DNA of 64,000 bases, taken from contig PMHV01000030.1 in the NCBI GenBank assembly GCA_003156805.1, positions 73,261 through 137,260 on the forward strand, written 5' to 3'. Under the pieces are notes generated by a model. That model did not search any database. It saw nothing but the letters and a program-made list of their open reading frames with translations, and was not told where the DNA came from. Made by a program: the position numbers and the translations under genes. Positions 51,895-57,354 of the stretch are shown here, one piece after another (position 1 is the first letter of the stretch; each line of letters begins with the position of its first letter). The stretch is from Acidobacteriaceae bacterium (GTDB taxonomy: Bacteria; Acidobacteriota; Terriglobia; Terriglobales; Acidobacteriaceae).

Positions 51895-53679
51895 ATGGCG
51901 ACCAATCTCGTGCAAATCGACAATGATGAGGAAATCAAGGAGCGCTTGGAAGGCGAACGCGCCAGGCTGCGCAAGATCGCTGGTTTGGACCAGCCCACAC
52001 ACTTTCATCGCCCGGTAGAACGGGCGTTCAAAGCCGAGGAGCGTGATCGCGTCACGATTCTGTTCGGCGGTTTCACCTGGAAGCATGAAGACCTGATCCG
52101 TGCGGTCTTTCAGGGCTGTGGCTACCGGTGCGAGAAGCTGCCCGTCCCCAATGTGGCGGCCTTCCAGACCGGCAAGGAGTTCGGCAACAACGGGCAATGC
52201 AATCCGACCTACTTCACCGTGGGCAATCTCGTGCAGTACCTGCAGTTCCTGGAGAAGGAGGGCCTATCGCGAGACAAGATCCTTAACAACTTCGTCTTCT
52301 TCACCGCGGGTTCGTGCGGCCCGTGCCGGTTCGGCATGTACGAGGCGGAGTATCGTTTCGCGCTGAAAAACGCCGGATTCGACGGGTTTCGCGTGCTGTT
52401 GTTCAAAGACAGCGACGGAATCAAAGCGGCGTCCGGCGAGCCAGGCCTGAAGTTTACTATCGACTTCGGATTCGGAATGCTCAACGCCATGCATCTCGGC
52501 GATGTGATCAACGACCTGATCTACCAGATCCGGCCCTTCGAAGTGAATAAAGGCGAAACTGACCGCGTGTTCCGGGAAATGGTGGATGGCCTTTGCGATG
52601 ATCTCAGGGATCGCGACTCTTTCGAGATTGAGCAGCGCGCGCCCGCACGGCTCAAGGCGAAATTCGAGAGCAACAAAGTGCTGAGAAATACCGCCAATGT
52701 TCTGGGCAAGATGCATGAGCATTTGTGGGGCAAGGACTATCTAAACGCTCTGCATACCGCCCGCGACCGGATGGACCGCATCGAAGTGGACCGGACCAAA
52801 GTGAAGCCGGTGGTGAAAATCACGGGCGAGTTCTGGGCGCAGATCACGGAGGGCGATGGCAATTTCCACATGTTCGATTTTCTCGAGCGCGAAGGGGCTC
52901 AGGTGGTGGTGGAACCGATCGCTACGTGGGTGGCTTACCTGTTGTATCAGGCGAAGGCGCACGCGATTGCGAAATGGCCGGTGAACCGCCCGCACCGCAA
53001 TCCAGCGTGGTATGAACTCAAGAAGAATATGGCCAATTATTTCGGCTTGCACAAGAAGCTCTGGGGCCTTGGTTTCGGTGAGAAAGCCTGGCAGTACTTC
53101 TACCATCGCACCATCAAGAACATGGGGGGAATTACGCACCACCTGGTGCCGCAGACGGACTTGGCCGAACTGGCGCACCCCTTCTACAACCAGTTCGCGC
53201 GAGGCGGTGAAGGGCACCTGGAAGTGGGCAAGAACGTTTACTATACCGTCCATAAGTTGTGCCACATGGTGCTGGCGCTGAAGCCATTCGGCTGCATGCC
53301 TTCTTCGCAGTCCGATGGAGTGCAGTCGGCGGTGGTGAACAAGTTCAAAGACATGATCTTCCTGCCGATTGAGACTTCTGGTGAAGGCGAAGTAAACGCT
53401 CATAGCCGCGTACAAATGGCACTGGGCGAAGCCAAAGTCAAAGCCAAGACCGAGTTCGAGCAGTGCCTGAAGTCGACGGGAAAGAGTCTGGACGAGATCC
53501 GGGATTACATTGCCGAACATCCTGAGCTGCGCCGGCCTTTCTACCACTTGCCTCACCGCGAGGGCGTGGCGGGAACTGCCGCTCAATTTATTTTGCACGT
53601 GAGCGATCGCATGGATAAGAGCACGCGGTTGTGGAAGCGCTCGCGGGTTCCCGGGATCGCCGTGCCAAGCGCCGCGTAA
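51895..53679 (+). CDS. 2-hydroxyacyl-CoA dehydratase-like FeS protein (atypical dehydratase subunit)
   Basis: 594 residues, cytoplasmic (no signal). Start has GGAGGAAG. Sequence pattern of the second component of large atypical 2-hydroxyglutaryl-CoA-dehydratase-type systems: VTILFGGFTWKHEDLIRAVF, GCGYRCEKLPVPN (Cys75, Cys79), EFGNNGQCNPTYFTVGNLVQ (Cys102), TAGSCGPCRFGMYEAEYRFA (Cys141, Cys144), and later HLVPQTDLAELAHPFYNQFA and PFGCMPSSQSDGVQSAVVNK. These cysteines likely bind an iron-sulfur cluster that accepts electrons from the activase encoded next (96-base gap). The family performs difficult low-potential reductions; the substrate of this subgroup is not established as far as I know. 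The protein is not a close match to classical HgdA/HgdB. Confidence 0.82.
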   Translation: MATNLVQIDNDEEIKERLEGERARLRKIAGLDQPTHFHRPVERAFKAEERDRVTILFGGFTWKHEDLIRAVFQGCGYRCEKLPVPNVAAFQTGKEFGNNGQCNPTYFTVGNLVQYLQFLEKEGLSRDKILNNFVFFTAGSCGPCRFGMYEAEYRFALKNAGFDGFRVLLFKDSDGIKAASGEPGLKFTIDFGFGMLNAMHLGDVINDLIYQIRPFEVNKGETDRVFREMVDGLCDDLRDRDSFEIEQRAPARLKAKFESNKVLRNTANVLGKMHEHLWGKDYLNALHTARDRMDRIEVDRTKVKPVVKITGEFWAQITEGDGNFHMFDFLEREGAQVVVEPIATWVAYLLYQAKAHAIAKWPVNRPHRNPAWYELKKNMANYFGLHKKLWGLGFGEKAWQYFYHRTIKNMGGITHHLVPQTDLAELAHPFYNQFARGGEGHLEVGKNVYYTVHKLCHMVLALKPFGCMPSSQSDGVQSAVVNKFKDMIFLPIETSGEGEVNAHSRVQMALGEAKVKAKTEFEQCLKSTGKSLDEIRDYIAEHPELRRPFYHLPHREGVAGTAAQFILHVSDRMDKSTRLWKRSRVPGIAVPSAA

Positions 53680-53775
53680 GAGTGGTGGCACCGCCGTCTT
53701 GTTTGTCATTCATTTGCCGGCGAGATGGCGGTCACTACGATTGAGAACCGCTTTTTACGACTTATCGGAGAGACG

Positions 53776-56700
53776 ATGCACGACCATCTGGGACAGCAAA
53801 AAAAGCCAGAGCTATTTCATATAGCCCCCGCACCCGCACAAAAACCGCGCAATCATCACACGGAATTCATGGTGGGACTCGATGTGGGCTCGACCACGGT
53901 GAAAGCGACGGTGGTGGATGCGGCGACCGACAAGGTGCTTTGGCAGGACTACCAGCGCCACGAAACTAAGCAACCGGAGAAGACGCTGGAATTCTTGCGC
54001 CGCATCGAAGCGGAGGTCGGCATCAACCGGCACAACACCCGCATGTTCATGACCGGCTCTGGTGGCGGTGGCATCGCAGAACAGATTGGCGCGAAGTTCG
54101 TGCAGGAAGTTACCGCGGTGTCACTGGCGGTCGAGAAGCTGCATCCCGAGGTGTATTCCGTCATTGAGCTCGGCGGCCAAGATGCGAAGATCATCGTCTT
54201 CAAGGACGACGAAGAGACCGGCCGCAAAAAGAAAATTCCCTCGATGAACGATAAGTGCGCAGGCGGTACTGGCGCGGTTATCGATAAGATTAACGCGAAA
54301 CTGAAGATCCCTGTCGCTGAACTGTGTGAGCAGAGGTATCACGGAATCAAACTCCACAGAGTTGCCGGGAAATGCGGGGTCTTCGCTGAGACCGATATCA
54401 ACGGCTTGCAAAAGGTAGGCACACCGTCAGACGAACTCATGGCGTCGCTGTTCGAGGCCATTGTTTTGCAGAACTTGAGTGTGCTGACTCGCGGCCACAC
54501 GCTGCGGCCTCACGTTTTGTTGCTCGGCGGCCCGAACAGCTTCATCAAAGGCATGCGTGAGGCGTGGCAGGCGAATATTCCGCGCATGTGGCAGGAGCGC
54601 AAGGTTACGATTCCTGATGGCGCAAAGCCCGAAGATCTGATCAAAGTCCCGCAAAATGCTCAATATTTTGCCGCCATGGGCGCCATTGAATTCGGCAAGA
54701 GCGAAGAAGACTGCGTAGGTTGCTACCAGGGACACGAAAAGCTGATGCACTACATCGAGCACGGGCGCCAGGAAGAAAAGGCCAAGTCCGGCGCCAAAGG
54801 ATTGACCAACAGCGACACAGAACTCGACGACTTCAAGGCCTCTTACCGACGTAAGAAGTTCACTCCCGCAACGTTTCATACCAACCAGACGGTTGGTGGG
54901 TTCATCGGCATCGACGGCGGCTCGACTTCGACTAAGGCCGTGTTGCTTGACGAAAACGGCGACATCCTTTGCAAGGCGTATCAGCTCTCGAACGGAAATC
55001 CGATCCAGGACACGGTTGAAATGTTCGAAAACCTGCGCGGCCAGGTGGAAGCGCAGAAAGCGAAGTTGGAAGTTCTGGGAGTCGCAACAACTGGCTACGC
55101 GAAAGACATTCTGAAAGACGTGTTGCACGCAGACGTGGCGCTGGTGGAGACAGTAGCTCACACGGAGTCGGCTCTCAAGTTTTACGAAGATCCGCACGTG
55201 ATCGTCGACGTTGGCGGGCAGGATATCAAGATCATCATCCTGCACAAGGGCCGCGTCAAGGATTTCAAGCTCAATACCCAATGCTCGGCTGGCAACGGAT
55301 ATTTTCTGCAGTCTACCGCGGAAGGCTTTGGATTGGGCGTTGAACAATACGCCGATCTGGCATTCTCGGCAAGATCGATGCCGATTTTCGGTTACGGCTG
55401 TGCCGTCTTCATGCAGTCGGACATCGTGAATTTCCAGCGGCAAGGCTGGCGAGCGGAGGAAATTCTCGCAGGTCTCGCGGCCGTGCTGCCCAAGAATGTA
55501 TTTCTGTACGTGGCTAGCATTCCCAATCTCGCGGCGCTGGGCACACGTTTCGTTCTGCAGGGCGGGACTCAAAACAACATGGCGGTCGTGAAAGCCGAAG
55601 TGGATTTCATTCACAACAGCTTCCGCGCTGCGGGCAGAAAACCGGAAATCATCGTCCACGAATTCTGCGGCGAATCCGGAGCCATCGGCGCTGCGGTTGA
55701 GTCTGTCCGCCTGTGGCGCAACGGCCAGCAGACGACATTCGTTGGATTAGAGGCGGTACGCAAGATCGAATACCGCACCACGCGCAACGAAAGCACACGG
55801 TGCAATTTCTGCAAGAACAATTGCCTGCGCACCTTTATTGACATTCGTACCGTCCCCAAGGACGATCTGAGCTTTGTGCCGATCCAGAAAGTCACCAAGG
55901 TTCCGCTGATGCACGGCGAGCAACGCCTCATCATCGCCACCTGCGAAAAAGGCCTGGTTGAAGATGTCAACGACATGAAGGACATCAAAGCGGGAATCGA
56001 CCAGATCAAAGACAAGTATCCGAATTTTGTGGACATGGCGGCGCACGAAGTTTTTCGTCCGGTTAACGCCGAAAGCGTGGCCGACCCCATCCCTGCTGCA
56101 AAATTCTGGAACAAGGCGGCGAAAGGGCGCATTCCGCTCATGGAAACCCGCAAGAAACTTCGCGTCGGCATTCCTCGCGTCCTGAACATCTACACCTACG
56201 CGCCGCTCTTTAACGGATATCTGGAGAGCCTGGGTGTGCAGCCGGAAAACATCGTCTATTCCGACTACACCAGTTCCGATCTGTACCGCGCGGGTGCGAG
56301 CCGCGGGGCCATCGACCCCTGCTTCCCGGCGAAGATCGGCATTTCCCACGTCTACAACCTCATCCAGGAAAAGCACCGCAAGAAGGCGCTGAATGTGATC
56401 TTTTTCCCCATGTACGACGTGTTGAGTTCGCCGCTGGTGAAAATCGTTGGCACCAACGCGTGTCCAACTGTTACGGCGACGCCGGAAACGGTGAAGGCCG
56501 CATTCACGAAAGAGAACGACGTATTTGCCGAGCACAACGTCAAATACGTGGATCCAGTTCTAAACTTTGCCGACCGCAAGCTGTTTGCACACCAGATGCT
56601 GCAGGCGTGGCAGCCAATTCTCGGTTTGTCACAAGAAGAGAACGACCGTGCAGTCGAAGTCGGCTACAAAGCGCTAGAGGACTATGAGGCCAGCATCCGC

Positions 56701-57354
56701 AAGCGTGCCCGCCAGGTTCTCGACCAATTGGAACGCGAAGATCGCATCGGCATCGTCATGCTCGGCCGGCCGTACCACCACGATCCCGGTCTGAATCACG
56801 AAATCATGGAGGAGTTCCAGAAGCTGGGCTATCCCATCTTCTCGCAGAACACGCTGCCACTGGATGAAGATATGCTGGAGCGTCTGTTCGGCGAAGAGGT
56901 TCGTGCCGGCGTTATCGGTCATCCGCTTGATATCACCGACGCCTGGAAAAATTCGTACTCCTGCAGTACCAATCACAAGGTGTGGGCGGCGAAGTTCACG
57001 GCGCGGCATCCCAACCTGGTGGCGCTGGAGATCTCAAGTTTCAAATGCGGCCACGATGCGCCCATTTACGGCGTGGTCGAGGGCATTATCGAGGAATCTG
57101 GCACTCCGTACTTCTGCTTTAAGGACCTGGATGAGAACAAGCCCTCCGGTTCGATCAGGATTCGTGTCGAGACTATCGATTATTTCTTGCGGCGCTATCG
57201 CGAAGAAGTTATCCGCAAGCGCAAGGCATCTGAAGAAATAGAAGCGCAGTTGGCCGCACTGGAAGCGGAACTGCGAGGGCAAATGGCAGCTGAAGCTACC
57301 CAACCCCAGCCACTGCAATGCGAACGGGAGGCAGAGGCTATGGCAGCGGACTAA
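53776..57354 (+). CDS. Giant acyl-CoA dehydratase activase: two BadF/BcrA-type ATPase domains plus DUF2229-like region
   Basis: 1,192 residues from ATG 53776, chosen because GGAG sits five bases upstream; ATG 53725 is open but lacks one. Two ASKHA ATPase domains lie in tandem: the first with GLDVGSTTVKATVVD, IELGGQDAKIIVFK, Cys161 in NDKCAGGTG and Cys200 in GKCGVFAETD; the second with GIDGGSTSTKAVLLD, VDVGGQDIKIIIL, Cys503 in NTQCSAGNG and Cys542 in YGCAVFMQSD. Each Cys pair corresponds to the ligands of the bridging [4Fe-4S] cluster in HgdC-type activators. RCNFCKNNC (Cys676, 679, 683) follows, then a COG3580/DUF2229-like region (RVGIPRVLNIYTYAPLFNGY, GAIDPCFPAKIGISHVYN, VIFFPMYDVLSSPLV, GTNACPTVTATPETV). 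It would couple ATP hydrolysis to injecting a low-potential electron into the preceding protein. Oxygen-sensitive chemistry is expected. Confidence 0.88.
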   Translation: MHDHLGQQKKPELFHIAPAPAQKPRNHHTEFMVGLDVGSTTVKATVVDAATDKVLWQDYQRHETKQPEKTLEFLRRIEAEVGINRHNTRMFMTGSGGGGIAEQIGAKFVQEVTAVSLAVEKLHPEVYSVIELGGQDAKIIVFKDDEETGRKKKIPSMNDKCAGGTGAVIDKINAKLKIPVAELCEQRYHGIKLHRVAGKCGVFAETDINGLQKVGTPSDELMASLFEAIVLQNLSVLTRGHTLRPHVLLLGGPNSFIKGMREAWQANIPRMWQERKVTIPDGAKPEDLIKVPQNAQYFAAMGAIEFGKSEEDCVGCYQGHEKLMHYIEHGRQEEKAKSGAKGLTNSDTELDDFKASYRRKKFTPATFHTNQTVGGFIGIDGGSTSTKAVLLDENGDILCKAYQLSNGNPIQDTVEMFENLRGQVEAQKAKLEVLGVATTGYAKDILKDVLHADVALVETVAHTESALKFYEDPHVIVDVGGQDIKIIILHKGRVKDFKLNTQCSAGNGYFLQSTAEGFGLGVEQYADLAFSARSMPIFGYGCAVFMQSDIVNFQRQGWRAEEILAGLAAVLPKNVFLYVASIPNLAALGTRFVLQGGTQNNMAVVKAEVDFIHNSFRAAGRKPEIIVHEFCGESGAIGAAVESVRLWRNGQQTTFVGLEAVRKIEYRTTRNESTRCNFCKNNCLRTFIDIRTVPKDDLSFVPIQKVTKVPLMHGEQRLIIATCEKGLVEDVNDMKDIKAGIDQIKDKYPNFVDMAAHEVFRPVNAESVADPIPAAKFWNKAAKGRIPLMETRKKLRVGIPRVLNIYTYAPLFNGYLESLGVQPENIVYSDYTSSDLYRAGASRGAIDPCFPAKIGISHVYNLIQEKHRKKALNVIFFPMYDVLSSPLVKIVGTNACPTVTATPETVKAAFTKENDVFAEHNVKYVDPVLNFADRKLFAHQMLQAWQPILGLSQEENDRAVEVGYKALEDYEASIRKRARQVLDQLEREDRIGIVMLGRPYHHDPGLNHEIMEEFQKLGYPIFSQNTLPLDEDMLERLFGEEVRAGVIGHPLDITDAWKNSYSCSTNHKVWAAKFTARHPNLVALEISSFKCGHDAPIYGVVEGIIEESGTPYFCFKDLDENKPSGSIRIRVETIDYFLRRYREEVIRKRKASEEIEAQLAALEAELRGQMAAEATQPQPLQCEREAEAMAAD

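Follow-up and report, generated by a model that had tools for sequence, protein, structure and literature searches.

Which stable substrate is attacked by a bacterial iron-sulphur (FeS) reductase whose activase carries two ATPase domains in a single chain? This question is raised by two adjacent genes, here called orfA and orfB, in a 64,000-nucleotide stretch of an Acidobacteriaceae genome (GenBank assembly GCA_003156805.1, contig PMHV01000030.1, positions 73,261 to 137,260 of the forward strand), the whole of which we call the window. A first-pass annotation, made from the nucleotide sequence alone, placed the pair among the ATP-driven FeS systems of the 2-hydroxyacyl-CoA dehydratase (HAD)/benzoyl-CoA reductase (BCR) superfamily, which our analysis supports. 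It also knew of no substrate established for this large class, a view that has to be revised because PlsA/PlsR (plasmalogens) and Ger (alkyl ethers) have this layout (PMC8788747, PMC11150832, PMC13274423). The best explanation of the evidence is a single ATP-driven FeS reductase, made up of orfA and orfB and belonging to the PlsA/PlsR-Ger superfamily; it is probably a glycerolipid ester reductase that makes ether lipids.

Domain architecture and conserved cysteines

The product of orfB (1209 aa) matches the activase family PF01869 (BcrAD_BadFG) over two stretches (E = 2.5e-70; 237.5 bits against a curated cut-off of 31.5), as it does the activase model TIGR00241 (E = 1.9e-59), while DUF2229 (PF09989) occupies residues 813-1042 (E = 4.8e-48); the two reading frames, and the combination of two ATPase domains and DUF2229 in one chain, were thus correctly annotated. 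The second ATPase domain (Act2) is nearest in the PDB to the activators 4eht (E = 2e-21) and 1hux (E = 7e-21). Phosphate-binding motifs, whose degeneracy would have spoken against the annotation, are intact in both domains (DVGST, TGSGG and ELGGQDAK; IDGGST, TTGYA and DVGGQDIK) and, with the PF01869 score and two cysteines per domain, place orfB in the BcrAD/BadFG-HgdC activase family.

We aligned the 60 members of the clade to which orfB belongs with 25 members of a PlsA clade and eight other tandem-activase proteins. Eleven orfB positions (C178, C217, C520, C559, C693, C696, C700, C740, C866, C913 and C1108) are cysteine in 58-60 of the 60 clade members and in 24-25 of the 25 PlsA-clade members, and the four predicted to form a relay (C693/C696/C700/C740) are kept throughout both sets. 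Both cysteines of each ATPase domain and the CxxCxxxC motif that the first-pass annotation reported are real, but its numbering ran 17 too low, the true positions being 178/217, 520/559 and 693/696/700. Together with three cysteines of orfA, fourteen predicted cluster ligands are kept in essentially all relatives; the cysteines of either protein outside the conserved set vary across the alignment. Neither of the two findings named beforehand as refuting the annotation, loss of the cysteines in close homologues or degenerate ATPase motifs, was thus borne out. In some relatives orfB is split near residue 785, which marks a module boundary there, into an activase gene of ~740-800 aa and a Red1 gene of ~400-530 aa (divergent, at ~46-50% identity: L025 (G132:C25), G599:C31, G602:C98, G594:C23, G665:C219, G623:C5 and G600:C158).

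The partner, orfA (594 aa), does lie directly before orfB, on the same (+) strand and separated by 45 bp, but its description as cysteine-rich was overstated: it has nine cysteines, and just four are conserved, C141 in 28 of 29 clade members and C102, C144 and C467 in all 29. Nothing among Pfam, NCBIfam or PDB sequences matched orfA, and a Pfam scan of 29 clade members likewise returned no family. Profile comparison (hhalign) with Red2/PlsR, however, gave 100% probability (E = 1e-45, 413 columns) and paired three cysteine motifs: NDxC(Y/F)P with QCNP, CR with CGPCR, and PFxCLP with PFGCMP. C102 aligns with the invariant cysteine of the first motif; the counterpart of C144 is invariant in Red2/PlsR, whereas that of C141 is not; and C467 aligns with the cysteine of QPF(G/A)CLPNH, in which the conserved PlsR histidine is replaced by serine or threonine, so that the sequence after the last cluster cysteine reads PNH in Red2/PlsR and PSS or PST in the orfA clade.

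An AlphaFold2 model of orfB residues 690-1190 (pLDDT 90.5) found HadBC (3o3n/3o3m) as its best Foldseek match (probability 1.00, E = 3.8e-5), followed by DCCP and BzdNO. The orfA model (pLDDT 83.3) was closest to the double-cubane protein DCCP (6eno, probability 0.99) and BzdNO (0.89). As TM-scores were low (0.2-0.5) and no orfA match passed E = 0.001, we draw fold conclusions at superfamily level: the models suggest a 2-hydroxyacyl-CoA dehydratase fold for the C-terminal part of orfB (3o3n is 2-hydroxyisocaproyl-CoA dehydratase), and for orfA a fold resembling those of the double-cubane protein and of benzoyl-CoA reductase.

Two readings of the superfamily meet their evidence here. A 2-hydroxyacyl-CoA dehydratase or benzoyl-CoA reductase in the strict sense, serving amino-acid fermentation or aromatic degradation, would suit the match of Act2 to HgdC/HadI activators and the best fold match of Red1, the reductase-like C-terminal module of orfB. 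We nonetheless consider it very improbable, since benzoyl-CoA reductase equivalog models score far under their cut-offs (123.5 against 578 and 100.3 against 380.2), profiles of orfA and Red1 retrieved no HAD/BCR subunit by sequence, and CoA-transferase or acyl-CoA genes are not conserved near the clade loci. HadBC/HadI and HgdAB/HgdC share the activase fold, its cluster cysteines and the Red1 fold, but their classical activators are homodimers of ~270 aa that serve CoA substrates, unlike the tandem, DUF2229-fused activase of orfB. Class I benzoyl-CoA reductase, BzdNOPQ, similarly combines two reductase-like with two activase subunits, although these are four separate chains acting on a CoA substrate.

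The first-pass annotation had named double-cubane clusters among those used by known members of the superfamily, and a DCCP-like reductase of small molecules would agree with 6eno as the top match of orfA and with the fold and ATP-driven activase that DCCP and YjiM-YjiL have in common with our pair; their activase, however, has a single domain. This reading was dropped on the cysteine count, and very little likelihood attaches to it: in BzdN the [8Fe-9S] cluster is held by six cysteines, in BzdO an aqua-[4Fe-4S] cluster by three (95/128/380; PMC11971306), whereas orfA has four conserved cysteines and Red1 three. The three invariant cysteines in each of orfA and Red1 fit the arrangement of BzdO and not that of BzdN.

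Relationship to PlsA, PlsR and Ger

By tblastn, orfB aligns over 92% of its length, at 30% identity, with a ~1475-aa Listeria protein of the 2-hydroxyacyl-CoA dehydratase type. The C-terminal part of this same PlsA-type protein, a plasmalogen synthase according to PMC9702350, is matched by orfA (E = 4e-17); in Fusobacterium the equivalent regions are two genes, of 975 and 404 aa. From this homology and the Red2 profile, orfB is Act1-Act2-4Cys-Red1 and orfA is Red2, which reproduces the PlsA/PlsR-Ger layout of tandem activase, 4Cys, DUF2229 (Red1) and Red2 partner. PlsA and PlsR are separate in Clostridium perfringens (CPE1195 and CPE1194) and fused in Listeria and Enterococcus; both chains are homologous to ours over their full length, with cluster cysteines and domain order alike, at identities of ~30% (orfB) and 22-25% (orfA). 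They differ from orfAB in the R-A gene order that the clade has in Acidobacteriota, in the length of Red2 (594 aa in orfA, 404 aa in Fusobacterium), and in the extra C141 and substituted histidine of orfA. Ger, from Thermotoga maritima (Tmari_0479) and Desulfatibacillum alkenivorans, is comparable by description rather than by sequence: PMC13274423 defines it as a homologue of PlsA that carries two activation domains, a description that orfB also fits, and it converts glycerolipid esters to alkyl ethers. It was expressed from a single gene (PMC11150832), whereas orfA and orfB are two.

A scan of named genomes returned 80 loci, with a gap in identity to the window orfB between 42% and 32%. In the protein tree, a quick search that gave long-branch warnings, the window protein falls within a fully supported clade (100) of 60 sequences, whose separating branch measures 1.07 changes per site; outside it are 25 proteins of PlsA type (Listeria, Fusobacterium, Veillonellaceae, Treponema and Fibrobacter) and eight further tandem-activase proteins, mostly Acidobacteriota paralogues. 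In a separate tree of the ATPase domains, the Act1 sequences of this clade and of the PlsA clade group together (100/100), as do their Act2 sequences (98/94), and other tandem-activase families stay outside. This second tree shows the tandem duplication to be older than the split between the two clades, and the orfB clade to be the sister of the PlsA clade, of PlsA/Ger type but not PlsA: the window protein does not lie inside the Listeria/Fusobacterium plasmalogen-type clade, and orfA lacks the histidine after the last Red2 cluster cysteine.

In the main rival explanation, the same machinery would instead act on some other stable acyl or hydroxyacyl substrate, as an ATP-driven reductase or dehydratase with no role in membrane glycerolipids. 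The long separating branch, the clade-specific CGPC, the missing histidine, the longer Red2 and the occurrence of the clade in obligate aerobes (PMC9131029) would suit such a change, as would tandem-activase paralogues that share genomes with the clade in some Acidobacteriota, so that functions may have diverged; the PlsA clade is nonetheless its nearest relative in the domain tree, and no conserved metabolic neighbours suggest a catabolic substrate. We regard this as possible but doubtful.

As a separate observation, other proteins with a tandem activase and DUF2229, of ~1040 aa and 1400-1460 aa, are found in Acidobacteriota (G085:C34, G122:C20, G037:C43, L026 and L027; L028-L032; L033-L035) and coexist with the orfAB clade in several genomes. 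Most of those sampled group outside the PlsA clade, but L026 lies within it.

Table 1. Features of the orfAB locus, in window coordinates
Feature	Coordinates	Strand	Basis
orfA, 594 aa, Red2 / PlsR-like catalytic subunit (HgdB/BzdO/DCCP-type fold)	51895..53679	+	
orfA C102, predicted cluster ligand, QCNP motif	52198..52200	+	Conservation, Red2/PlsR alignment
orfA C141 and C144, CGPCR; C144 predicted ligand, C141 clade-specific	52315..52326	+	Conservation
orfA C467, predicted ligand, KPFGCMPS	53293..53295	+	Conservation, Red2/PlsR alignment
orfB, 1209 aa, Act1-Act2-4Cys relay-Red1	53725..57354	+	ORF call, Pfam/NCBIfam, Listeria homology
Act1 ATPase domain, residues 48-330, C178 and C217	53866..54714	+	PF01869/TIGR00241; motifs and Cys intact
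Act2 ATPase domain, residues 393-660, C520 and C559	54901..55704	+	PF01869 394-658; PDB activators
4Cys relay C693/C696/C700/C740, Act2-Red1 junction	55801..55944	+	Conservation
Red1, ~residues 780-1190, contains DUF2229; C866, C913, C1108	56062..57294	+	PF09989 813-1042, AlphaFold2

Gene pairing, distribution and oxygen

At 44 clade loci examined by a mechanical call of open reading frames (ORFs), the partner adjoins orfB in 37, upstream in 17 and downstream in 20; six loci, mostly at contig ends, have only one partner, and in one SAR202 (Chloroflexota) chromosome the equivalents of orfB and orfA are fused into a protein of 1751 aa (L053:4911-10163). The occurrence of both gene orders and a fusion argues that orfA and orfB work together. 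The first-pass annotation had proposed conserved gene neighbours as a check, and the partner does recur; no other family recurs beside clade loci across phyla, which is expected for an enzyme of bulk lipid. Other apparent clusters of neighbours were rejected as antisense shadow ORFs or as limited to Sulfurovum and a few loci. Two genomes hold two orfB-clade copies each (G347, contigs C11 and C5; G350, contigs C53 and C167), and one locus in the window's family (G155:C1:693991-696201; L024) has an open frame without the first 530 residues, possibly a decaying copy.

By hand count, the clade is present in ~20 of 199 sampled Acidobacteriota genomes and, within the window's own family, in ~72 of 200; it occurs in a large minority of genomes both of that family and of Bryobacteraceae, and is patchy even within a genus (present in G680, G697 and G724, missing from G084, G661 and G711). 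About one third of the 141 genomes in the phylum of G199, which resembles Myxococcota by its named matches, also carry it. Common in Acidobacteriota and Myxococcota, the clade extends to Bacillus, Sulfurovum and Bacteroidota. Named holders are Nannocystis pusilla, Sorangium cellulosum, Enhygromyxa salina and Bacillus chungangensis, and in the last three the orfB match is the sole one found per genome. Apart from Anaeromyxobacter, myxobacteria are obligate aerobes according to PMC9131029, and with Sorangium, Nannocystis and Enhygromyxa among the holders, the anaerobic or microaerobic metabolism suggested by the first-pass annotation is weakly founded.

Lipid context and proposed reaction

In C. 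perfringens, PlsA/PlsR turns the ester at sn-1 of diacyl lipids into the vinyl ether of plasmalogens (PMC9702350, PMC8788747), and Ger expressed anaerobically in E. coli yields alkyl ethers at sn-1 and partly at sn-2 (PMC11150832, PMC13274423); the latter source holds that the two activities are not distinguishable by primary sequence. PlsAR homologues have been proposed for the ether lipids of the acidobacterium Ca. Solibacter usitatus, an organism that has no ElbD (PMC10087280), so the enzyme type is not new to Acidobacteriota; what is added here is a distinct clade, its gene organisation and its spread.

The domain layout, the PlsA/PlsR homology, the folds of the reductase halves, the conserved ligands and the gene pairing are established by sequence and models; from these, and by analogy with HAD, BCR and PlsA biochemistry, we infer complex formation, cluster types, electron path, substrate and product as follows. 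A [4Fe-4S] cluster would sit between the two ATPase domains of orfB (C178/C217 and C520/C559), as the first-pass annotation rightly thought the tandem domains able to arrange within one chain, and be fed one electron by ferredoxin; a POR domain encoded in the same genome might supply the reduced ferredoxin. ATP hydrolysis would then push the electron through the relay C693/C696/C700/C740 to dehydratase-like half-sites in Red1 (C866/C913/C1108) and Red2 (C102/C144/C467 of orfA), each with three cysteines and, probably, a coordination site left open. At these clusters a membrane glycerolipid would have its very stable carboxylic ester reduced by successive low-potential electrons and, upon dehydration, turned into an ether, most likely the saturated alkyl ether of lipids that are iso-branched or span the membrane.

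Several points weigh against this proposal. The lipid assignment comes from homology to characterised enzymes, with a tree that covers PlsA-type proteins and other tandem-activase families. The long branch dividing the clade from the PlsA clade, and altered surroundings of the active site (extra C141, lost histidine, longer Red2), mean that a substrate change is possible. The presence of the clade in obligate aerobes is unexpected, as the chemistry is oxygen-labile in characterised relatives. Finally, membrane-spanning lipid synthesis offers no specific link. In line with the proposal, the genome does encode a 746-aa radical-SAM homologue of Tes with a C-terminal extension (G000:C50:50488-52725; L212:1000-3237, + strand) that matches the archaeal tetraether synthase 7tol (E = 2.5e-62) and NF045702 (E = 8.5e-94, but at 314.9 bits below the cut-off of 450). 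An association between Tes and orfAB was nevertheless rejected, since the homologue is near-universal in the family (182 of 200 genomes), where the orfAB clade occupies a subset, and is missing from several pair-bearing genomes (e.g. G564, G587, G598 and G604).

This pattern, Tes nearly everywhere and orfAB in some genomes, parallels, without testing, published surveys in which iso-diabolic acid was general in subdivisions 1 and 3 and ethers were found in few strains (PMC13274423). The Tes homologue is itself a candidate bacterial membrane-spanning lipid synthase; the genome also encodes the hopanoid protein HpnJ (E = 1.2e-235) and PqqE of PQQ synthesis (E = 2.7e-160; L202, L204).

Branched tetraether lipids are a common proxy for past temperature and pH, yet among Acidobacteriota elb genes are found only in some subdivision 4 genomes. 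For the formation of ether bonds in this phylum orfAB, a conserved two-gene reductase of the PlsA/Ger type, is a concrete and testable candidate. A bolder view, which we offer tentatively and would not expect to prevail, is that the clade is a third, functionally distinct branch beside PlsA and Ger that tolerates or evades oxygen well enough to work in Sorangium, Nannocystis and other obligate aerobes, and that it either makes ether lipids, including acidobacterial tetraethers, by an unrecognised route or acts on a new stable ester. Its presence in such organisms would also bear on whether low-potential radical chemistry can work in oxic cells.

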